Shown here one piece after another: positions 5,183 through 62,000 of a stretch of 64,000 nt of DNA. The stretch is from Daucus carota subsp. sativus. Its lineage: Eukaryota; Streptophyta; Magnoliopsida; Apiales; Apiaceae. Below the pieces are notes generated by a model. The model was not told where the DNA came from and ran no database searches. It was given only the letters and a program-made list of their open reading frames with translations. Positions within the stretch are counted from its first letter, which is position 1, and every line of letters starts with the position of its first letter. The stretch spans positions 1,141,131 to 1,205,130 of the forward strand of contig NC_030381.2 in NCBI RefSeq assembly GCF_001625215.2, given 5' to 3'. The translations under genes and the position numbers were made by a program.

Positions 5183-5838
5183 GATAAAGTTTAATTATTA
5201 TAGTCACATATGTGCAAGTTAGTATCAAGTATCTGTCAATGCAACATTTTACAACTGGTAATGAAACAAACATGAAAGAAGTATCAGGAATTTGTCGATT
5301 TTGTTGAAACAAGATATCGCATCTTCTTTTTGCTTCTTTATCTTTGAATAGAAATAGTTACCGGTATGAATATTTAAATCTGTGCAACTCTGGCAGTAGT
5401 GGAACTCGACCCCAGGTTACTAATGATGTTTTTTCGTCCTTTGTCATGCGGGAAGAACATATAAATTTGGCTTTGCTCAGGTTATGAGTTATGACATTAC
5501 CGGGGAAAAAGATGATGTTAAAACTGTAGCATAATTACTCTTTCTTGAACAGTTTCGATGTTTACGAATGCTCTGTTATTATACTTTATTTAAATTTAAA
5601 AAATATAATTTTAAGAATGTGGAGGTGATGAGAAAAAATAATTAGTTTGATTTTGGGGTTAAAATATTTAAGTAAGTGATATTGAAAGGACGAAATATCA
5701 TATAAATATTATTAATAGAAAATGAATGCTTATTAAATAATAGAATAATTAAATTAATATGTGTAAATAATATTGAAAATATATAGAAATAATTAAAGAT
5801 GATTAACGGAAAAGATAAACTTATCAATACCCTTTATT
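5183..5838. other. 3' flank of ERD2-like gene and A+T-rich DNA
   Basis: The left part is the probable 3' untranslated region of the ERD2-like gene. From about 5570 the sequence becomes very A+T-rich and leads into the tandem repeats. I see no gene here. The left end of the Helitron that ends at 7391 may lie here or further right, but I could not place it. Confidence 0.4.
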
Positions 5839-6182
5839 AATAAGCGAAACCACATTTCAGTGGAACATCGGTACCAAAATACCAAAATTTGGTCACTTTT
5901 ATATTGATTAGGACAGTGAAAGACTTCTATATTGATTAGAATTTTATGAAAAGACTTCTATGTTAATTCGGATTTTATTATTAAAAATTTTAATATTGGT
6001 TAAGATTATTAATAAGCGAAACCATATTTCAGTGGAACATCGGTACCAAAATACCAAAATTTGGTCACTTTTATATTGATTAGGACGGTGAAAGACTTCT
6101 ATATTGATTAGAATTTTATGAAAAGACTTCTATGTTAATTCGGATTTTATTATTAAAAATTTTAATATTGGTTAAGATTATT
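5839..6182. repeat. 172-bp tandem duplication
   Basis: Two head-to-tail copies, 5839-6010 and 6011-6182, both begin AATAAGCGAAACCA and are nearly identical (single-base differences only). The near identity points to a recent duplication. It lies upstream of the Helitron end at 7391 and may be part of that element. Confidence 0.9.
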
Positions 6183-6349
6183 ATACTGCTATATAAAAGA
6201 CTTATGGTGTTTAGGATTTTGTAATATAACATTTATACGGAACAACTCTATAAATCTTTTAGCATGCTTCAGAATTCAAATAAATAAGGAGTTCATATTG
6301 ATATTAATATAATATTCTATCAATAGAATAATAATGTCAACGAAATTAT

Positions 6350-6955
6350 TCGTTTTAATTTTTAAAAATCATGCAATTTAATTTACGAAATAAATTTATA
6401 AATTTTTTATTATATTTCAGAATTAAAATAAACAAGATTCAATATTGATACTAAAGTACCCAAAAACTTGGTCATGTGTTTTTTTAATAATGATAATTAT
6501 TATCATTCGGTGTTTTTCAGAATATTGCGATAAAGACGAATAAGGAGGGGGTAACACTAACTTGACAAATAGAAACTCAAAGAAAATAAAGTCATTGTCC
6601 ATATTGCAACATATAATAGAAGAACCGAAACTCTAGACATACGTCAGATATTTGTTTTAATTTTTAAAACTCATACAATTTAATTTATAAAACAAAATTA
6701 TAAAATTTCTATCATATTTCAGAATTAATATAAAAAAGATTCAATATTGATACCAAAGAACCAAAAAACTTGGTCATATATTTTTTAATAATAATAATTA
6801 TTATCATTAAGTGTTTTTCAGAAGATTGCTATAAAGACGAATAAGGCGGTGGTAACACTGACTTGACAAATAGAAAGTCAAAGAAAATGAAGTTATTGTC
6901 CATATTTCAACATATAATAAAAGAACCAAACTCTAGACATACGTCAAAATATTTG
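6350..6955. repeat. ~303-bp diverged tandem duplication
   Basis: Two related copies at about 6350-6652 and 6653-6955 share the ordered blocks TTTTAATTTTTAAAA, TTCAATATTGATAC, AACTTGGTCAT, TAATTATTATCATT, AAGACGAATAAGG, TAACACT..CTTGACAAATAGAAA and CTCTAGACATACGTCA. They differ by scattered substitutions, so this duplication is older than the 172-bp one beside it. Nothing coding is seen. Confidence 0.8.
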
Positions 6956-16132: not shown

Positions 16133-16500
16133 CCGGAGTTTGTTTCACAGCAAATTACACGTATTGCACCAGCGAATGAGTTGACTCAAACACAATCTTC
16201 GACCTGCACTGCTATACACGCATCGGGACGTTTGAACAAATACAAAACTTCATATAACTTCCGCTCCTAATCTCAACTACTTGGATCGTTTCAGCCCAGC
16301 AAACGACGATTTGCACCCGGAGTTTGTTTGACAGCTATATCAGCATATTGCATCAACGAATGAGTTGACTCAAACACAATCTTCGACCTGCACTGGTATG
16401 CAGGCATCGGGACATTTGAACACCCACAAAAAATCATATAACTTTCATTCCACATCTCCTTTACTTGGAGCCTCTCAACCCCAGCAAACAACGATTTGAA
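16133..16500. repeat. 184-bp tandem duplication next to a Helitron 3' end
   Basis: Two copies at about 16133-16316 and 16317-16500 share CCGGAGTTTGTTT, GAATGAGTTGACTCAAACAC, AATCTTCGACCTGCACTG, GCATCGGGAC and CAGCAAACGACGATTTG-type blocks with scattered differences. They sit directly upstream of the hairpin and CTAG of the Helitron at 16508-16537. Confidence 0.85.
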
Positions 16501-16729
16501 CAATAGCGCCCGTGCCTTGCACGGGCTTCCACGCTAGTTAGTTTAGAAATGAATACCAAGAGATTGACGCGCATGAATATTTATGTGAAATAAGAGCTGG
16601 TTTAGCACCGAGAAAGAGAAGCGGGCTGGGTCCGACTGAGAAAGAGAGCCCATCTCTGTAAAAGCTGATAAAAGTCATCCAGGTTTTGAGCTACAGGTGT
16701 CCACTCCCCATTGGCTTGTGGGGACTCAC

Positions 16730-20362: not shown

Positions 20363-22095
20363 ATGGCGGCTGAGGCACCTGCTGTCACCCCTCAAATTGT
20401 ATGTGTCTTTAATTTATATCTTTAGTTATAGCTTCGAGTTTGCATCTTTATATGTTTCTGTTGCTCAAGTTTGCATCTTTATATATTCTGTAGCATCAAG
20501 TTTGTATCCTTTTTCTTTTTCTTTTTTTAATAAATTTTAATTGAATGGGGTTCTTGGCTTTTGGACTGCGATGTGTTTTGGACAGGTTGGGCATGCATTT
20601 GTTCAACAGTATTACCTTATACTTCATCAATCCCCTGCGCTTGTACATCGTTTTTATAAGGATATCAGCAAACTTGGTCGTCCTGAAGATGATGGTACCA
20701 CGAGTATCACTACCACCATGAGTGTAATCATCCCTTACTTCCTAGCTTTTGTCCTTACTAATTTCGTTTGTTTTATAGTCTTTGTGGTTGTGATATGGTA
20801 TTTACATGTGAAATTGCATTCCCACTTGATGTTAATCTATTTATTGTCTAGTGATTTGTTTATGGAGAATTGGGGTTTTAGAATTTTGAGTTGGGTGCTT
20901 ATGTTGCCATATCTCACAGGCTATCAATGAAAAGATTTTATCCCTCAACTATGGTGAATTTAGGGCAGAGATTAAAACAGTTGATGCACAAGAGTCACTG
21001 AATACTGGGGTTCATGTCCTTGTAACTGGTTACCTCACTGGAAAGGACAATGTGGTGCGGGATTTTGCTCAGACTTTCTTCCTTGCACCACAAGAACGAG
21101 GGGGCTATTTTGTGCTTAATGACATGTTTCGATATCTGGAGAAGGCTAATCAGCCTTATGAAGATCAGGTTCTCAATACTGAGTATGAGGTTCCTGTCGC
21201 TGTTGAGCAAGGTAATCTTTGATCTCAGTGCTTTGAGTTTCATCTTGTGTATAATTTATGCTGGATAGTGGATATACAATTTTAACTTTGCTGTGTTTAT
21301 TTACTTGCTTGTTTGTTCTATGCAGAAGCGAATCCTGTGCAGGAGGATCACATGACTGAGCGAAATGATGCTTTGGCATCGGAGCCTAATGAGGAATCAT
21401 TACACAATGTATCTGAGAATGGAGAAATAAAATTTGAAAAAGAGGAAGAGGCTGTAGCTGAGATGGTTGACGAAGAGCCAGTAGCTGAGGTTGTTGACGA
21501 AGAGCCAATTGCCGAGGTTGTTGACGAAGAGCCTGTAGCTGAGGTTGAAGAAGTACGAGTCCAAGAGGTTATCCAAGAATTGCCAAATAATTCAGAGGCG
21601 GTTGTTGAATCTAATACTAAAAGTGAAGTACCAAAAAAGTCTTATGCTTCTATAGTAAGTTTCTGAGCAACATACGAGCTTGACATTGATTTTTTTTTTG
21701 TATAAGTATTTAATGTTCATTGACATAAATTATGTCCACAAACAATGTTTATGTGTTTCTTTCAAGGCCTTTAATGCTCTATATGACATCCATCCAGACA
21801 TACTGTCTTAGCTTTGAAGGAATAAATATAATAGGAAGAAAATATTTCCATGGGTTTTTATGCTTTGATGTGTAGGTGAAAGATTTAAAGGAAAAAGGTC
21901 TACCTTTCTCATCTCCAGCACCTGTGTTGCGTAAAACTCCACAAAAGAGTCGAGAGCAACAAATGAAATCTACTCCGCCTGCAAGCTCAACTACTGATGT
22001 GTCGGCCTCTATTTTAAATTCTGCTGAAAATGTGAACCAAGATCTAGAATGTAACTTAGTTAACCTTCATGTGTACACATATCTATATCTCAGCG

Positions 22096-27707: not shown

Positions 27708-27761
<54 letters not shown>

Positions 27762-28164
27762 CAGTCATATATATGGACTTATATTGTCCCTGTTTCATTT
27801 GTTTATATTTTCAGGATGCTTGGAAGAAGACGGGTTTTTCTTTTCGGACATTAAAGTTTTATTATCTAAATTTCCCTGGTCATCTTGCATGTCCGATGGT
27901 TAGATGATAAACTTTCTTGAATGAAATAATTATCACGGTGAATTGGCGAATCATATCGGTTGAGATTCATTCTCATTTCAAAAAAAAAAAAAAACAACAA
28001 CAACAACTAGAACTAGACTAAGCTTATATGCTGCATAAAGTTTCAAAGAATGATCATTTGCATTCAACTAAAATTTTATTGTTAATTGGCGACATTGTAA
28101 TTGATCGAGTTTACAAGGCCATATTGAGTGACGGAGACAAGGAAGTCTTTTAAAGGGGGTCTTC

Positions 28165-28216
<52 letters not shown>

Positions 28217-28619
28217 CAGTCATATATATGGACTTATATTGTTCCTGTTTCATTTGTTTATATTTTCAGGATGCTTGGAAGAAGACGGGTTTTTTTTTCG
28301 GACATTAAAGTTTTATTATCTAAATTTCCCCGGTCATCTTGCATGTCCGATGGTTAGATGATAAACTTTCTTGAATGAAATAATTATCACGGTGAATTGG
28401 CGAATCATATCGGTTGAGATTCATTCTCATTTCAAAAAAAAAAAAAAAAAAAAAACAACAACTAGAACTAGACTAAGCTTATATGCTGCATAAAGTTTCA
28501 AAGAATGATCATTTGCATTCAACTAAAATTTTATTGTTAATTGGCGACATTGTAATTGATCGAGTTTACAAGGCCATATTGAGTGACGGAGACAAGGAAG
28601 TCTTTTAAAGGGGGTCTTC

Positions 28620-28655
<36 letters not shown>

Positions 28656-29076
28656 CAGTCATATATATGGACTTATATTGTCCCTGTTTCATTTGTTTAT
28701 ATTTTCAGGATGCTTGGAAGAAGACGGGTTTTTCTTTTCGGACATTAAAGTTTTATTATCTAAATTTCCCCGGTCATCTTGCATGTCCGATGGTTAGATG
28801 ATAAACTTTCTTGAATGAAATAATTATCACGGTGAATTGGCGAATCATATCGGTTGAGATTCATTCTCATTTCAAAAAAAAAAAAAAAAAAACAACAACA
28901 ACAACTAGAACTAGACTAAGCTTATATGCTGCATAAAGTTTCAAAGAATGATCATTTGCATTCAACTAAAATTTTTTTGTTAATTGGCGACATTGTAATT
29001 GATCGAGTTTACAAGGCCATATTGAGTGACGGAGACAAGGAAGTCTTTTAAAGGGGGTCTTCATATATAATATATA
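27708..29076 (+). repeat. Three-unit array of a poly(A)-tailed sequence separated by TA runs
   Basis: Three nearly identical units (periods about 455 and 439 bp) start at TA-dinucleotide tracts near 27708, 28172 and 28625. Each has the order: TA run, AATCAGTCATATATATGGAC, GGATGCTTGGAAGAAGACGG, TTTCGGACATTAAAG, TTGAATGAAATAATTATCACG, ATTCATTCTCATTTC, an A run of 14-20 bases, CAACAACTAGAACTAGAC, and GGGGGTCTTCATATA. The part before the A run matches the retroposon tails at 13.6 kb and 52.5 kb, so a retroposon insertion with its flank was later amplified as a tandem array. Differences are mostly in the lengths of the TA and A runs. Confidence 0.88.
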
Positions 29077-40552: not shown

Positions 40553-41538
40553 GGCCTGTTTGGAAGCATGGATTTCATTTGAAATTCTGAATTTGATCAA
40601 ATAACTTGTTTGGGAATTTGAATTTGGATTTCATTTCAAATCCAGACATTCAAATACCAATATAAATCTGAGAATTTAAAATGACAACTAAAATCCTGTC
40701 ATTTGAAATCCATCATTTAGAGCAAGTCCAATGCTAGATGCTATATATCTATTGCTATTGCTATAATATAGCACCAAAAAACACTTTTTGGTGCTAAAAT
40801 AAAACTTGCACTCCAATGCTAAGTTCTATAACTAGTTTCAAATTTAACCAACTCATCAACTTTTACCTAACTTTTATATAGAACCAACTCATTAACTTTT
40901 ACCTAACTCATTAACTCATTAACTAGTTTCCAATTTCTAGTTATTGATGATGTGGCAACATGGATGGATCCATCCTTGGTTTCAAATATAGAACCAAGGA
41001 TGCATCTAAGAGCAAGTCCAATGCTAGATGCTATATATCTATTGCTATTGCTATAATATAGCATCAAAAAGTGTTTTTTGGTGTTAAAATAGAACTTGCA
41101 CTCCAATGCTAAGTTCTATAACTAGTTTCAAATTTAACCAACTCATTAACTTTTACCTAACTTTTATATAGAACCAACTCATTGACTTTTACCTAACTCA
41201 TTAACTCATTAACTAGTTTCCAATTTCTAGCTATTAATGATGTGGCAACATGGATGGATCCATCCTTGGTTTCAAATATAGAACCAAAGATGCATCTATG
41301 CATGGATGCATCCAAATATAGCACCCCTTTGGAGTTGAGTTTTTTTACTTTTGATGCTATAATATAGCAATAGAACCAAGTATAGCATTGCATTGGAGTT
41401 GCTCTAAGCATGGATGCATCCAAATATAGCACCCCTTTGGAGTTGAGTTTTTTTACTTTTGATGCTATAATATAGCAATAGAACCAAGTATAGCATTGCA
41501 TTGGAGTTGCTCTTAAAATGAAATGCATCCAAGCGGCC
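40553..41538. mobile_element. Outer MITE split by a Tourist-like MITE
   Basis: The outer element has termini GGCCTGTTTGGAAGCATGG and, inverted, GGCCGCTTGGATGCATTTC; the word ATTTCATTTGAAAT recurs near its left end and centre. Its right arm is separated from the rest by the insertion of 40720-41512. TAT on both sides may be its target duplication. It lies in the presumed 5' leader intron of the UBA-PUB gene. Confidence 0.7.
40720..41512. mobile_element. Rearranged Tourist-like MITE with duplicated left and right halves
   Basis: TTA at 40717-40719 and 41513-41515 flanks the insert. It starts GAGCAAGTCCAATGCTAG and ends, inverted, GAGCAACTCCAATGCAATG. The left half occurs twice (from 40720 and 41010, period 290 bp) and the right half twice (ends at 41404 and 41512, period 108 bp), so the insert has four potential termini. 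A TTA/TAA target and GAGCA termini point to the PIF/Harbinger (Tourist) group. Confidence 0.8.
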
Positions 41539-51139: not shown

Positions 51140-52459
51140 TATAATTTAAGTAGACCTATAAACTCAGATATAAACTTTCCTATCAACCTTTTAATATTTC
51201 GTTATTAATAATATGGTATCAAACATATTATAATTTAAAGAGACGCATGAAATCAAATATCGACCAATCATACTAACCTAAATTTAATGTTTTGGTTTAA
51301 TAAATAATAAAAAATATACAATAACATGTTATAAATTCAAGAGCTCCGTGGGTTACCAACTGATTCATCAAACTCAACTAACTGACCAACCAAGTGAACT
51401 TTTTATTTTCGACTTTAATAGTGTAATAATATATAGTATATGATAGATTTGTAATATTTCTTTTAATGTGAGATCATTAGATTATTTACAAATAATGTTA
51501 TTAATGTATTTTGTTTGAATAATATCACATGTTATTTATTAATAATCATATTTAATGATATTATATTTTTATATATATGGTGCCCGTGTTAATTGGAAAA
51601 ACCCGGTTTTTTAGCTAGAAAATCTAAAAAAAATAATGCGTTTTGATTAAAAAGGCAATTACTATGTTGCTCGATATTATTTTAGAATATTGAGTTTTTT
51701 GAGCTAAAAAATATATAAACAATAATTTATTTTAGTTAAAAAGAATAATTGGTTATATATATAGATAGGCACGTACTTCGGCCCAAGTACCGACCGCCCG
51801 ACCAATATAATAATACTCTCTCTGTTTTTTATTATTTAACATTTAGACTTTTGGTACACATATTTACGTATAAATATGTCGCTCATGTCCGTATTAATTG
51901 TAAAAGGTTAATTTTTTAGTTAGAAAATTTATAAAAATATAATATATTTTAGTTAAAAAATGTAGTTACCATGTTTTTCAATGTTATTTTAGAAAATTGA
52001 GTTTTTTAATCAGAAATATAAAAAAGGTAATATATTTCAATTTAAAAGATTAATTGGTTATATAGATAGGCCCGTACTTTGGCCTAAATTAAAAAGAATA
52101 ATTGGTTATATAGATAGGCCCAGAATAATTGATTATATAGATAGGACGTATTTTGGCCCAAGTACTGACCTAACAAACTTTTAATGTTTCGGCTTTAAAA
52201 GAATTATTAATTGGTAAAGAATAACTGATTATATAGATAGGCCCAGAATAATTGGTTATATAGATATGCCCGTATTTTGGCCCAAGTACTGAACTACCAA
52301 ACTTTTAATGTTTCAGCTTAAAAGGATTATTAATTGGTTATATTTATAAGCCCGTACTTTGACCTAAGTTAAAAAGAATAATTAGTTACATAGATAGGCC
52401 TATAAAAAAGCCCGTATTTTGGCCCAAGTACCGACCGACCAAATTTTTAATGTTTCGGC

Positions 52460-52917: not shown

Positions 52918-54458
52918 TGTGACTTACCTTCAAAGAAAGAGAGATGATGGACAAATTTAACTCTAAAATTATTATCAGCCTTTAGTTAATATTTACATAA
53001 AATGTGACAAAATTGTTCTCGCGTGATTAAACCAATAGTTATAGCATCGACGATACTTGGCTTCAAATAATAAATTGAGGGCATGAAGTTGCAAAAATCA
53101 AAACACAATCACTAAAGTGCAAAAGCATTATAATACATACCACTAAAGCGTAATTTACTCATTCCACGATTAAACAAAAATGGCGCCACAATAAAAATGG
53201 CCGAAAATGGGCAAGTAATTGCAGGCAGGCAAAACAGGCCTCTCCCTCTTCTTCATTGTCTGCATATCCAGCCCGCTATTACTCTCAACCAAGAATTTGA
53301 AATTAATTTCTGTAGTTTTGAAGCACAGATACAAAATTGAGAACAAGCAAGAAGACGAAGCAAAAAATACTCTATACTCACTTGAATTAGTTTTGGGTAA
53401 ATTAACACTTGTTTATATATTTAATTATAGATAGAGAGGCCTAGCTACAAATCGGTATCGGAAAATTCAAAATCCAGGTAATTCTAAGCCCTATTATCAG
53501 GACTTGTACAAACCCTAGATTGAAAAGTAGTCGTTGAATTTCTAATTCAGGGTCATTTATGTAATTACAATTTTGTACATGATGTGGTTTAACTTTTTGT
53601 TAATGCATATTATTTGATCAAATATATATGTTCTGTATCTTTAGAAATTTGTTGTTCAGTTAAGCTACTCGACTTATTGTGAGTTTGCTGCTGTAATGAA
53701 CTGGGGGGATCATTGCGATATCAGTGCTTTAGTATATGTTTGTATTGTACTTGTGAGGATTAAATGTTATAGTGCTGAAAATGGACTTGCATCTGAGAAT
53801 TTGATTAAAAAGACGAAGATAATTATGATGTTATAGTTTTGATCTTGGATTACAAGTATACACTTTCCCGTCTACTCAATTGCGTTCTTGGCTTCATAAG
53901 TTATATGATCAATGCATAGTTACCTGTGAGTTGTGTCATCCTACACTGGTTAGTTGGTTAATTATTAAATGCCTGGCATAAGTCTACAAGACTAGCCTTT
54001 CAAAAAAAGAAAAAAGTCTACAAGACTATGTCTATCATACACCAGAATTTCGGCTCAGGGTGTTATGTTATTAATTTTCTATTGTGCTCTGTTACCCCCC
54101 TCATTTTATGTTTAATTTGATTTGCTAATGCATTTTGGAAACTATGAGAAGGTTTAAATTGTATCTATATGTATGTTATTGTGTATAAGTGTCTAAAGAC
54201 CCTCCCAAAGGATTTACTCTTGTGAAGTGCTTACACTAAAAATATCAAGTAGGCATCCTATTAGTAGTAGTCTGTTCTCAAATGGTCATCTGAATTACCA
54301 ACTTGTTTTTCGCATGTTTGCACAGAACTATTTTTTACAGAACATAAAAACAAAAGCATTACATATCCCACTTAAGATTGTTAAAAATTTAAATTTATCT
54401 TTACAGCAATATTTGATGTGGATTTATTCTATATATACACCCTTTTTTTACTTGCTAA
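52918..54458. other. EAF1-like promoter and leader region
   Basis: From about 53150 the sequence becomes gene-like. AAATCCAG followed by GTAATT at 53478 is a good splice donor and may end the first untranslated exon of the EAF1-like gene. The following intron would run to the acceptor TTGCTTTTAG at 55489. No other gene is seen; the short frame at 53219-53434 lacks any known motif. Confidence 0.45.
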
Positions 54459-54852
54459 GAGCATCTCCAACCATACAAAACCCTTAGCTAAAAAGTGAGT
54501 TGGCATTCTAAATATAAAAAATTTAGCCAACCTCTTGAAAACATCACTCTCCAACCACATGAATCTGTTGTCTATAATTTTAGCCAACCTCTTATGGATG
54601 GTTATATTTGTCGAACCTCTACAGACCTGTAAGAAATCCGTAAGAAGACCATGCATCATTTATTACCATATTGAACTGATATATTCTATTTTGACAAACT
54701 AAAATATTAATAACATACTATTTTTAAATTATAGCCAACCAATATAACCAATACCATTGAAGTATAATGTCTTACAGGTTCAACAAATTTTACATAATGT
54801 CTTACAGGTCCAATTTAGCTAATGATTATAGCCAACGCCGTTGGAGATGCTC
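54459..54852. mobile_element. Tourist-like MITE with TAA TSD
   Basis: Termini GAGCATCTCCAACCATAC and, inverted, GAGCATCTCCAACGGCG bound 394 bp. TAA occurs on both sides (54456-54458 and 54853-54855), as expected for PIF/Harbinger elements. It sits in the presumed leader intron of the EAF1-like gene. A decayed relative lies at 35616-35981. Confidence 0.88.
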
Positions 54853-55013
54853 TAAGATACTTTTTTCAATTTTTTAATACTTTTTTCCATTTATTAAAAT
54901 TGTTCTAAAAAGGCAATCTAACTTCTATTTCTGTTGTACGTATTCAGTATAACTTATTTCTATAGATGATATTGTCAATTCCAAGGAATAGTTACATATG
55001 CCTTGATGCTCAC

Positions 55014-55036
55014 ACACACACACACACACACACACG
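55014..55036. repeat. (CA)n microsatellite
   Basis: A pure CA dinucleotide run of about 23 bases in the presumed leader intron of the EAF1-like gene. Confidence 0.9.
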
Positions 55037-55513
55037 AGAGTTAGGTTCTATGGAGTCCACATTTAAGCTAGAGTTTCGGAGTACCGTTCATAATTTTTTT
55101 ATTTAATCATATAAAATATCTTTGATTATCAAAATATATATATAATTTGTCATTTATAGGTAATCTTAAACAACATTATCAATTAAATGTTAACATCCTT
55201 TAATTGTAATAAGCATTAAGATCATTGTTCTGCTTATTAATTATTATATAGAACATAGTGTTCTACGATCTATAAAAGTTGTTGTTGTGCATGTTGATTA
55301 CGTTGTAGAACATAATCTATCTTCAGGTTGTCGGATGTTTAAAAATGTTATTGAGCAAAAAAAATTAAAATTGAAACTTTATCCAATTTTGAAGAACGTG
55401 GACTCCAATGGACCAATACTCCACTTTAAATGTGGACTCCATATAACTTCACTCATATATATTGAATGTTTATTATTTTTTGCTTTTAGGAACCTGATTG
55501 ATTTTAAACAAAT

Positions 55514-56005
55514 GGGACTGAATAACATTTAGGAGTTAGGAAAAAGAATGAGTGGATATACTTCAGGTTCCGGTCACTTAGTCCATGCCTTGTTGGCTAT
55601 ATAGAAGTTATTGTTTGTTCTCGAACCGATAGGACTAAAAAACATTTAGGCGTTTGGAAAAGGAATGAGTGGATATACTTCAGGTTTTGGTCGCCTAGTC
55701 AATGCTGACGTTGGTTAAATGGGAGTTATTGATTGATCTCGAGTCGATAGGATTGAAAAACATTTAGGCGTTTGGAAAAGGAATGAGTGGATATACTTAA
55801 GGTTTCGGTAGTTCGGTCTCTTAGTCAATGCTGACGTTGGTTCAATGGGAGTTATTGATTGATCTCTAATCGAGGGAACTGAAAAACATTGAGGTGTTTG
55901 GAATAGGAATGCGTGGATGCACTTCAGGTTTCGGTCACTTAGTCAATGCTGACATTGGTTCAATGGGAATTATTGACCACAAAGGCGGTGCTCCTACCGA
56001 GTTAC
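55514..56005 (+). repeat. Four tandem copies of the EAF1-like start-codon region
   Basis: Units of about 117-126 bp repeat the pattern: GGGACTGAATAACATTTAGG-like head, TTGGAAAAGGAATG, an ATG, G(A/T)GGAT..ACTTCAGGTT, TCACTTAGTCAATGCTGAC, and TTCAATGGGAGTTATTGA. The ATGs are at 55548, 55665, 55783 and 55909. The first three open short frames that end at in-frame stops after 18, 17 and 5 codons. Only the last continues into the gene. All four would lie in one exon if the acceptor at 55489 is used. Confidence 0.87.
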
Positions 56006-59000
56006 CTCCTCATATAGCAGTGATCGAGGATACTATATCAAAGCTCAAGTAAATTTACTTTCATCCTGTATTATAACTCTATCTATTCTACTTCTGTATC
56101 TGGTGAAGTCTCTTTGTACTTGATTAGGTAATATGTCTGGCAATTATCTTATCAACAGGCAGCATAATGTGTCTTACGAGGAGGCGAAGAGGCAATTAGA
56201 CTTTCTTGAGAAAGTAAGTAGCTTATGTTTGTACACCATCGCGGTCTTCAAAATCAATCTTGAATTTCTCCTGCTGTGTTGACCAATAAATTATTATCTT
56301 CAGGGTGGGGATCCCTTGGACTTCAGAGCTAATAGTGCATCTTCACTTAGCGCACAATCTACTTTGCTAATGGACCACAGGCATGACCACTTGGGGACCA
56401 GGTATAAGTTGTTTGGCAGTGTATGTATCAACTATTATTTCACTTTATGTTTTTTCCAGTTGTTCAACTGTGCAATGTGATATTCTGTAATTTCAGTATC
56501 GTAAAAGATAGGCTTGCAGTAGCTGCTTCACCTCCTAAGGATTCCATAGAGAGTAATAGTAAGACACAGGCACCCCTAGATGATAATACTGGAAGGAACG
56601 ATTTTCTCAAAGGTGAAAGAAATTGTAAACATTCTCCTAGGAGAATTATTGGCCAATTTGAGAAATCTTTCCGGTTAGGTGGTATCGAGAATTCCAAAGA
56701 GTCAATTGACTCTGCTGCTTCCGGGCTCCGAAGAAAAGCATATAGACAAAGGAATAGATCACGGTCAAGTCGTGATGGTACTCAATCAAGTTTGTCTGAT
56801 ATGGTGTCATCTCATGGTGTTCATACTCATTTACCTTCTCAATATGCTGCAAGGGATGCGCATGGATTGGTAATTAATGAAGATAATCAGAAGGACTATG
56901 ATGTCTGTCTAAAGTCTATTTTGAATTCAACAAGTCCAAATTACAATAGTGCTCCCAAGAAGAAAAAACTCAATAGATTTGAAGCAGCTGGTGGTGTACA
57001 GAGTTTACATTCAAACGTTGACATGGTCAGAGGTGGTGTTCCTGATGCTAATGCTTCCAATAGTTTGCCTGATAACCAGCATAATGAATATTCAGACTCT
57101 GCTTTACGGGTAACTCATGTTAATAAGGCTCAGTTCGAAGATTCACAGGAGGTACACAAAAAGGCTGATTTAGCAGGCCATAAATGTGCCTCTTTCTTGG
57201 GAAAGCCAAAAGTTGAAGGTCAAGTAAATCTTGCGCAAATGAAAGGGATTATTCGTATAAAGGGAGAGAAAATGAGCACATTGAATGAACATCAAATTGG
57301 GAATGCAGTATGTGGGGCCAGGGGCCTGAATTTAGAGTCATCTTGCAACCAAACAAGTCTTGTACTAGAGAGAAACCTTGATAGTAAATTTTGTACAAGT
57401 ATAAGAATCGGATGCTCCAAAGGGAATGATGATCAAGAAACTGTAGCAATTGAGGACACACCATATAAGGGAGGTAATAAATTGAAGGAAACTGACGTTG
57501 CCAAATTTAAAGAGGCACGTGATATTACTAGTGACAATAATAATTGCTTTCGCGAACAGAAAAATGGTTATATTTTGAAAAACAAGCAAGCATTAAATGA
57601 AAATTTATCAGGATCTTTAATTGAGTTGGATCGAGTTCCTACTGTGGGAGTTGTGCCAGATTCTTTTACTTCTCAGGGAAATAAAAGGCTTTCAAATAGT
57701 TTATCAGATCCTGGCTTCATCAGTAAATATGGAAATGCTTATACCTCTGAGCTTCGGTCTATAATGGAGTCCTCTATTCAAGAAACTTCCGATACTAAAT
57801 TGTCTTCTAGGGTTTGTGCTGTTTTACCTGAGCATCAAAACTGTCACCAAGTGACCTCCAAATTGGCAACTATGGAATGTAAAGACTTAATTTTAGAAGA
57901 CGAGCGGATGACAGAGGTAGTTTTTTCTCTATTTAATATATGAAATTTACAGATACAAATTTATCTACGTGGTCAGCATTGATTGTTGTTCCTTGTCTGA
58001 GATATCTTTGGTACACATTCCAAATGCAAGAGAATTACTGATATATCAGCTCATACGCTGTCGCTGGAGTTTTGTCGAAGATCTCAATGGGATTTTGTCC
58101 TTGAAGAAATGGCATGGCTGGCAAATGACTTTGCACAGGTCAGATCATGTATTTCTTTTTCTCTTTTTAACATCTCTCATTTTCTTCTCAGGCAGCGTTT
58201 TTCTTGCAAACTGATGTGATGTATACAATCAACTATTTCAGAACCTGCCTTCAGCTTATCTCCCTTAATAATGTTATATGTTCTTAGGAGCGAATATGGA
58301 AGATAAGTGCTGCTTCTCTAATAGGCCATAAAGCTTCTGCTGCTTTTCCATTGAAGTCTCATGAACAAAAATCTTGTAAAAGGCAAAAAGAAGTAGCCCA
58401 TTACTTGGCAGAAGCTGTTGTCAACTTCTGGCGTGCCATAGAGGTTGTTCTTGATCTCAGTTTGCAGTCTTTTTCTCTAAATACCTAAAAACTTGGATTT
58501 GTGTGTGGGATGTCAGTTTTACCTGCCTTTTGGATCCTTGTCGATTCACGATACATATTTTAGCTTCTATTTCTTATGGATTTATGGGTGTGTGCTTTAT
58601 CCAATATTGCAATTAATATATATTTATGAACTTGGGTTCATATAAACTTTTCACTGTACACGTATTGAAGAGGGGCTCATTTGTTTGGAATTTTTGATTG
58701 TTGCTCTTTTTCTGGAAAAGACTTTATAAATCCTTTAAACCTTTGAAGGGAATGGTAGTTTGCAGCGTTAATTTTAAATATTTCCATCTTGCTTTTTGGT
58801 GGTGTCAGGAGAGAAACAAAGATCAGAACTTGCACAAACCTGGAAAAGATTTCTCGCATGCAATCCAGCGATATGCTTTAAGATTTTTAGTATACAATAC
58901 CTGTACCGTGCAACCTGCCCAAGCAGACTCTCCTATAATACTGCACAGGATATCTGATCAAAACATTCAAGACATGTCATGGGATACTTATTTAAAGGAG

Positions 59001-62000
59001 GTAGATGACACTATTTCTGCTCTTACATGTTCTTTTGTATAAGTTCTGATCTTACTTTTTGGATCAGTGACAAGCTTTACACATTCTTGTAGGAAAACCT
59101 CTTCTATTCTGTTCCTACTGGTGCAATGGAAGCCTACAGAAAATCTGTTGTGTCCAGTTTGCTGCAGTATGAGGTAAATATGTCGTATTAAAGTTATCAA
59201 ACAGGACAACTTGGAAGTTGATATCTGTGTTTTTGTACTTGATTCACTTCGTATCTTAAAATGTTTTAAATACACAAAATTACTTTCAGGCAACCAACCA
59301 CCTGAGCTTACATGGCTGGGTAACATGTCCTTAGCCATGACTTCCACATTTGTGAAAGCCTGTTATCTGTAAACAACATGCTAAGACACTGGCCAAGAAT
59401 ATATAGGATTGTCTGTTTGCCTCTTAGTGTTTTTATCAGGCTAAAGATCCATTTATAATTTTTGTTTGGAATTATTTATTACATGTCATCTCTTTTTCGC
59501 AGAGCCTATAAAGAACTTTAATGAGGTAACATTCTTATTGCCTAAGAGCACCTTTGGGAAGCATTTTTTATTTTGTCCATTTCTGTTTGTTTGGCTCACT
59601 GCTTCTCACATCTCTGACGTTAACTGTATTTGTTTGAAAAATAATTTACATCTCTACTTAGAAGGGACTTCAGTAAAAGAAATACCTTTGTACTACTTGA
59701 TTATTTTCTTCTATAACAGTCTTGACTTGGCTGATGCTACTCAATGGTGTTGTGCTTCTTTAAATCTTCTCGATATCATAATCACGAGTCATGAAATGCT
59801 CGACTTCAGCTATGAGATATTTCCTTATTATGTATTTATCCACCTTAATGAGTTTTCCTTATTTCTCAGAAAACTGGCAGCATGAAGGAGGAAGTAGAAA
59901 CAACTTGCCATGACACTCTAGCAGGTATTATGAGCGTGTAAATTGTATTTTAGTTGCTTTTAGTTCACTGTGTATTATCTGATTCGTCATCTTGCAATAC
60001 AATTATGATGAAGTTGGGAACCTCTTCTCTGTAGTTAATGCGAAACGGTGTGCGGACACGCTAAATGTTTCTATTCCAACAAAACGTGTGAGGACTGCTT
60101 CGCGTCAAAGAGTTCCAAGTCAATTTACTGAAACTTCTGGTTGTGTTCAGGCACAAAGTAAGACATATGCTTCTAGTGGGGACACCACCTCTTTTCTGGA
60201 TGACCAGAGCACATTATATGGTGGATTGCACACACCAAATACTTATGATTCTGCTGAAATACTACATGAACCCAAGAAAAAGGAAGCAAACATCATGGTA
60301 AAATTCTTCCCTCAGAATTTTCAATAGAGGAAACCTTAGTTCCTTGTTCATGGCAGATATCAGCAAAATGAATGAATGCTATGATCTGCCATGAATGAAT
60401 GCTATGCTTTGTAATTATACTGTCTCAGAAGTAGTCAACTTGATACTTCTTTTACAAGAAATATGATTTCCATTGTTGGTCGAGTGCTCTTTGCACTCTA
60501 TGTTAGTCTAAAAGCTTTTGTTTACCTGTTACAGAGAGAAAATAATAAAAGGAGTCTAGATACTCATGAACTTGAATCTAATGGAAGCAACGGTATCACT
60601 TCTATTCATCATTTAACTTGATGACTGCCTAATGTGTAAATAAATGGTCAGATCCTTTTTTTTTCCCCCCTTAGCTTTCTGTGAAGGTGGACTGGAACGG
60701 GGCCGCAAAAGCAAAACACTGAAGGTAGTCTAGGGGAATGACAGAGCAGATTTCGTATCAGGAACCTGCCCTATTCTAGTTACACTAACTTATATAGCTT
60801 TTATATATGTATAGATAATGCAGGCCCCTGGGGGTCAACCGGGTTTAGGAAGTCCATGGTCATTATTTGAAGACCAGGTTATGTTCTTATTTTCCAAATT
60901 CTGAATTTTTGCATTAATGAATTCTCACAGGTTGTATATATATAATTCTGTTGTTTATCATTTATATGAATAAATCAGGCTGTCTATAATACAATGTTTT
61001 TGATCTTCTAGGCCCTCATGGTTCTGGTGCATGATATGGGTCCAAATTGGGAGTTTGTCAGTGATGCTATTGGCAGCATTTCACAATGCAAGGTAAAATA
61101 GATATACCTTGTATATATGTACTTAGGGCTTTTTTATCAGTGTGTATATCTATATGGACAACTCAAATTTGTAGATATATATTTTTATTGCGTTTTTATA
61201 AATTGGGGTTAGTTCTATTATTATTATTAATGTTATTGTTATTATTATTGTTATTGTTGTTCACAATCAGTAGCATTGTTGTTATTTGCAGTTGTAAACT
61301 TCAAAATCAGTAGCACTTTTCACATAATCTGTTTCTTTTGTAGAATATTCGACTAAAACTGAAATAAGAGAGATGAATTATCAATTATCATAGTTGGTTT
61401 TTGTATTTAATATGTTCAGTGCATCTTCCGCCAACCTAAAGATTGCAAGGAGCGTCATAAGATCTTAATGGATAGCCCTGCTGGTGATGGAGCAGATTGT
61501 TCTGAATATTCAGGGTCATCACAACCATACCGGTCAACTTTACCTGGCATACCAAAGGCAATTGTGTTATTTTTTTTTAGTTTATATTTATATCTGATAT
61601 ATCGATTGAGGCCTTGCTAATCTTATTTTCTAACAAGTACCTTATGCTTTCCTACCAATTGTTATATCTATTGCTAAGCAGATGCTATATTTTACACAGG
61701 GTATTGCCAGAAAGTTATTTCAACATTTGCAAGGGCCAATGGAAGAGACTACAATCAAATTTCACCTGGAAAAAGTTATTACACTTGGAAAAAGGCAGCA
61801 TTGTAGGACTAAGGTGTGGTCATTTCCAATTAAATACCTAAATGTACTTTAAAATTATCAAAACATAAACCACATTGTGCTTTTAGCTGCTTTAACTGTG
61901 GTCGATCTTTTTCTTTTTTCTGATGAGTATGACAGTTTGGGACAAGTTAAAGTACCTGGTCTTGAAAATCCCTTGCAGCATTTAATTCCTGTTCTCTATC

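Follow-up and report, generated by a model that had tools for sequence, protein, structure and literature searches.

Four tandem copies of the start region in the putative leader of an EAF1-like gene of Daucus carota

The window analysed here, a stretch of 64,000 nucleotides from Daucus carota subsp. sativus, contains an EAF1-like gene whose start region is present in four tandem copies (Table 1). The gene model that begins at the ATG in 55909 comprises 856 codons in 10 exons without any stop codon, and over this modelled part the gene looks functional. For the last modelled exon an alternative acceptor, giving 60014 instead of 60035, also leaves the frame open. Exons after 60297 were read in pieces only, and the 3' end of the gene lies beyond the right end of the window. 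An HSA domain was identified at residues 587-635 (Pfam PF07529, E 5.1e-08; score 33.6 bits, cut-off 23) and a SANT/Myb-like domain was found downstream of it (PF13921, Myb_DNA-bind_6, E 1.5e-06, 28.7 against a cut-off of 22.9); PF00249 scored 24.1 on the same piece, slightly under its cut-off of 24.4. A search of the PDB gave seven weak matches (Myb, CEF1, p400), the best with an E value of 0.1, and the 130-aa SANT piece matched 6 viral and 53 prokaryote stretches, none of which was confirmed as a relative. One probable GC-AG intron was noticed within the gene at 61560-61700 (CCAAAG/gcaatt ... cacag/GGTATT), with the GC donor near 61563.

PIE1/SWR1 and p400 carry an SNF2 ATPase between the HSA and SANT domains. 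No SNF2 ATPase was detected by Pfam in the pieces of 750 and 130 amino acids that were scanned; the remaining regions, 59870-60297 and 60298-60820, amount to less than 1 kb, and hence offer too little room for a whole ATPase. In the order of its domains (HSA, then SANT/Myb), with no ATPase in the two scanned pieces, the gene is like the plant EAF1 proteins, the NuA4 scaffold represented in Arabidopsis by AtEAF1A/B. The domain order fits the plant EAF1 type as characterized in the available portion of PMC7047200, where the AtEAF1 proteins are described as having conserved HSA and SANT domains and their genes as lying in tandem. The present locus differs from this arrangement: no second EAF1 gene was found within the window by tblastn (E 0.01), the only matches outside the exons of the gene itself being two of the repeat units, and it is the start region that occurs here in four copies. 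The first residues of the protein presumably resemble the N-terminus of Arabidopsis EAF1.

Table 1. Features of the EAF1-like gene and of the array at its start (lower-case letters, intron; slash, splice border).
Feature	Coordinates	Strand	Remarks
Putative 5' leader exon 1	53220..53477	+	ends at donor CAG/gtaatt
Putative leader intron	53478..55489	+	holds two terminal-inverted-repeat elements
Predicted leader plus first coding exon	55490..56048	+	holds all four units
Unit 1 (U1)	55495..55611	+	117 bp; copy of 5' leader and start
Unit 2 (U2)	55612..55729	+	118 bp; secondary acceptor before 55633 inside
Unit 3 (U3)	55730..55855	+	126 bp, 8-nt insertion; secondary acceptor before 55751 inside
Unit 4 (U4)	55856..55976	+	121 bp; working copy, runs on into gene
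uORF 1	55548..55604	+	18 codons, MSGYTSGSGHLVHALLAI; frame shifted into TAG by a 1-nt deletion absent from units 2-4
uORF 2	55665..55718	+	17 codons, MSGYTSGFGRLVNADVG; TCA to TAA at codon 18
uORF 3	55783..55800	+	5 codons, MSGYT; TCA to TAA at codon 6
Main start plus first coding exon	55909..56048	+	MRGCTSGFGHLVNADIGSMGIIDHKGG...; donor CTCAA/gtaaat, in-frame splice to 56159
Further EAF1-like coding exons	56159-56213, 56304-56401, 56497-57916, 58031-58138	+	
Further EAF1-like coding exons	58288-58443, 58809-59000, 59093-59173, 59870-59924, 60035-60297	+	
SANT/Myb-like domain exons	60821..61813	+	open in pieces

An earlier sequence-only reading of this DNA had described four tandem units, each bearing a start codon, and this was confirmed. 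Tandem Repeats Finder delimited an array at 55515-55976 (period 118, 3.9 copies, 82% matches), a repeat search returned four copies with spacings of 117, 118 and 126, and after alignment with MAFFT the units showed pairwise identities of 75-91%, the closest pair being U2-U3 (107/118) and the most distant U1-U4 (88/117). Alignment and exon model also support that reading: each unit repeats 5' leader sequence together with the initial ~23 codons of the intact EAF1-like gene. The array had been placed at 55490..56048; the units, whose borders are cuts at a constant distance 5' of each ATG, start at about 55495 and the fourth ends at about 55976. Of three local alignments that included the flanks, two set the left edge of the repeat at 55495 and one at 55507. 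Its right end lies inside the MGVID codons, and the coding sequence from there (~55976) to 56048 is unique. When up to 3 mismatches were allowed, a 25-nt core at the upstream ATGs occurred three times, whereas 100 shuffles gave an expectation of 0.00; the core of U4 is too divergent to count among these matches. The earlier statement that all the ATGs stand in the same context is true as a similarity and not as an identity, the codon after the ATG being CGT in U4 and AGT in units 1-3. Units 1-3 also share TAT where U4 has TGC; with the Arabidopsis EAF1 N-terminus (MHGC...) taken as outgroup, we assume that TGC is ancestral and was kept in U4.

The reading frames of the units behave as had been proposed: the first three close after 18, 17 and 5 codons, and only the one from 55909 enters the gene, remaining open for 47 codons up to the splice site. 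The frames diverge among the copies through a 1-nt deletion in U1, a nonsense change in U2 and an 8-nt insertion plus a nonsense change in U3, and a comparison limited to the copies gave no indication of purifying selection on the uORF peptide. A purine is found at -3 in the three upstream unit ATGs as well as at the true start, and the distances from each stop to the next unit ATG are 60, 64 and 108 nt. The count of three upstream mini-ORFs holds for those opening at the unit ATGs, but nine ATGs and not three precede 55909 in the predicted leader exon (55512, 55548, 55585, 55665, 55702, 55719, 55783, 55828 and 55845; those at 55548, 55665 and 55783 are the unit ATGs equivalent to 55909). At least nine ATGs are present in 46% of the windows of equal size taken from the whole stretch, so this number is not unusual. 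A longer N-terminus beginning at one of the upstream ATGs was ruled out within the exon by in-frame stops, the nearest being the TAA at 55867.

The ends of the repeat point to a possible origin. Both breakpoints carry TTGA (TGATTGAT at 55495 and ATTGAC near 55972), and a microhomology event is suggested by this shared motif. A segment of ~118 bp, covering the last part of the 5' leader and the initial ~23 codons, would have been duplicated in tandem within one exon through this short homology, and further duplication would have raised the number to four copies, the last of which alone would have remained joined to the gene. The junction TTGAT/TGATC places an in-frame TGA right after codon 23 (MGVID/TGA) following U2 and U3, and in U2 this TGA, further downstream of the present stop, is still in the frame of uORF 2 (MGVID*). 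After U1 the junction position is mutated and the TGA is no longer read in that frame. Since the junction TGA is in frame, an upstream copy would probably have been closed as a uORF of 23 codons as soon as it formed, instead of extending the N-terminus; two of the three junctions show this. Later mutations would then have cut the three uORFs to their present lengths. U1 and U2 have in common a C-to-A change where the codon-18 stop lies, so that the lesion of U2 may predate the split between these two units. The unit tree was not resolved, with three informative ungapped columns (two for U1+U2 and one for U2+U3). Jukes-Cantor distances range from 0.10 (U2-U3) to 0.30 (U1-U4), and if 7e-9 substitutions per site are assumed to occur each year, the divergence of the units would date back some 7 to 21 million years, as a very rough estimate.

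One important question is whether the array forms part of the mature mRNA. Splice matrices were built from 14 acceptors and 12 donors of the gene itself, with borders picked by eye; neither the acceptor before 55490 nor the donor at 53478 was included in the training sets. This acceptor scored 11.91 and ranked first among 117 AG sites, and the donor scored 9.93, first among 164 GT sites in 53200-56048, although in a leave-one-out analysis two of the 14 training acceptors scored below 0, so the acceptor matrix is weak. The two top ranks make it likely that one predicted leader exon carries all four units, and the homology among them starts at ~55495, 5 nt inside this exon, indicating that the copies would share one acceptor. 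The putative exon 1 upstream comprises 258 nt without ATG, a property matched by 514 of 63743 overlapping windows of equal size, the stretch having been picked post hoc; its left edge at 53220 is simply the border of this ATG-free stretch, also picked post hoc, and the true edge may differ. On sequence grounds the predicted leader intron, 53478-55489, thus has good support. It contains two MITE-like elements, at 54455-54856 and 55038-55454, with terminal inverted repeats of 17 nt at 94% and 42 nt at 81%; the second element ends 35 nt before the predicted exon.

The top-ranked acceptor is thus the one that had been put forward at 55489 to join the four copies in a single exon, but acceptors inside U2 and U3 could drop some of them. 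Those before 55751 (7.3) and 55633 (7.2) rank 5th and 6th of the 117 AG sites and outscore 12 of the 14 acceptors of the gene in the leave-one-out analysis, whereas U4 lacks an equivalent (the AG before 55875 scores -0.23). Use of the site before 55633 could shed U1 with its uORF, and that before 55751 could shed U1 and U2 with theirs. If these or later acceptors were preferred, or if transcription started within or after the array, the array would be mostly absent from the mature mRNA and would represent largely intronic or promoter DNA. We regard this as unlikely: the acceptor before 55490 is far stronger than either internal one, both of these still retain uORF 3, and the best acceptor past 55783, located before 55825, is weaker (24th with a score of 3.03, a range into which several true sites also fall) and would itself retain the ATGs at 55828 and 55845. 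An assembly artefact, by which the number of repeats would have been miscounted, is extremely improbable. Errors in copy number are usual in short tandem arrays, but the units differ at 9-25% of their sites and have distinct indels and stops; four such units could not result from miscounting one, so that any doubt would concern no more than the copy number.

Provided that the predicted splicing of the leader is correct, the array should lower the translation of EAF1. According to the accessible part of PMC5972666, uORFs permissive for reinitiation in plants usually have fewer than 16 codons, a limit that uORFs 1 and 2 slightly exceed; uORF 3, with 5 codons and located 108 nt 5' of the main ATG, fits the size and spacing for reinitiation. 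From the scanning rules, the purine at -3 of the upstream ATGs and the length of uORFs 1 and 2, reduced translation is expected, and ribosomes would arrive at the true start through leaky scanning or through reinitiation, the latter mainly following uORF 3. The array might also be a selected multi-uORF switch that keeps EAF1 translation low and releases it when reinitiation rises (e.g. through eIF3h/TOR), making NuA4 dosage dependent on conditions. In its favour, the three ATGs persist with their purine at -3, the stop-to-ATG spacings are those given above, all three uORFs were shortened, and eIF3h is reported in the available text of PMC1896003 to support multi-uORF leaders in Arabidopsis. 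In a neutral simulation with 12, 4 and 2 substitutions for U1-U3 relative to a TCA-type unit (the 12 counted by eye), early closure of all three ORFs had a probability of ~0.04 (0.585 x 0.131 x 0.495, 0.038), a value that treats the lesions as independent although U1 and U2 share the codon-18 change. Survival of all three ATGs, in contrast, is expected in ~0.44 of the cases (0.574 x 0.841 x 0.919); with 9, 4 and 1 substitutions the two values were 0.53 for ATG survival and 0.04 for early closure. In the four-unit alignment 39 of 117 columns are variable, and a permutation test revealed no clustering of the conserved ones (p 0.61). The predicted RNA structure of 55490-55930 is ordinary (z -0.42; 30 of 100 shuffles fold equally well). 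Differences around the ATG were fewer than elsewhere between U1 and U2 (3/44 against 22/73, p 0.0025) and between U1 and U3 (p 0.0185), the 44-nt core used in these tests having been selected after the alignment was viewed; the other four pairs missed 0.05, U2-U3 narrowly (p 0.0516). This is a hint, in two of the six pairs, of constraint or gene conversion near the ATG. There is no good evidence that the arrangement was kept by selection, early closure being a mild point in favour, and the switch is quite improbable. The evolutionary status of the array is most likely neutral or mildly deleterious rather than that of a selected switch. We consider it probable that the array represents neutral or mildly repressive uORFs that were generated when the start of this very gene was duplicated in tandem.

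Serial short uORFs precede the main ORF of yeast GCN4, and the same order is seen here; compared with GCN4, two of the uORFs are longer (17-18 codons) than is usual for reinitiation. The leader is also like the plant leaders with several short ORFs before the coding sequence of a regulator (AtbZIP11, CLV1, AS1 and the ARFs), as presented in the accessible parts of PMC5972666 and PMC1896003. Unlike in those leaders, the three uORFs are here near-copies of the start of the main ORF, and their origin by duplication is visible. The origins of uORFs are described as poorly known in the available section of PMC2075485, which names fragmentation of the main ORF, random gain of ATGs and relocation or fusion as possibilities, and tandem duplication has been proposed for some Drosophila uORFs (PMC2276209, in the part available). 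In comparison with these origins and with conserved-peptide uORFs, the source is here the start of the main ORF itself, and the copies do not share one peptide frame. No tandemly copied start codon or start region feeding uORFs appeared in the titles and abstract openings among the literature matches listed, and the accessible parts of PMC4358907 and PMC8755797 contain no mention of duplicated or upstream EAF1 starts.

The locus may be a readable case of another origin of uORFs, in which the start of the main ORF is copied and closed at the junction. A more general route is an unlikely extension of this: part of a gene, including its start, would be duplicated in tandem and would thereby yield, in a single step, an array of decoy starts with an in-built stop, which would here tune the dose of the NuA4 scaffold by copy number and possibly vary between accessions. 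A natural series of near-identical starts in one leader would suit tests of leaky scanning and reinitiation in plants. For annotation it is a caution that the first well-placed ATG need not be the true start.

Tandem duplication is not restricted to the EAF1-like gene. Tandem Repeats Finder detected eight arrays with a period of at least 100 bp in the window, the start array included, covering 4222 of 64000 bp. This indicates that local tandem duplication is common here and that an array at a start region is not extraordinary. Five of the other duplications (5834-6183, 6343-6955, 40719-41298, 41295-41532 and 52093-52338) have periods of 108-301 bp and copies 88-98% alike, so some of them are recent. 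At 27710-29076 there are three copies of a ~455-bp unit with 95% matches, each opening with a long TA run, and directly 3' of them lies ACTAGCCTTTAACCCGTGCGAAGCACGGGC, which we take to resemble a Helitron end. Two copies of a ~184-bp unit at 16133-16540 are followed by GCCCGTGCCTTGCACGGGC...CTAGTT, presumably similar to a Helitron 3' end. A shorter repeat of 27 bp, GAAGAGCCAGTAGCTGAGGTTGTTGAC, is present in 3.8 copies at 21445-21547 and could encode EEPVAEVVD in one frame.
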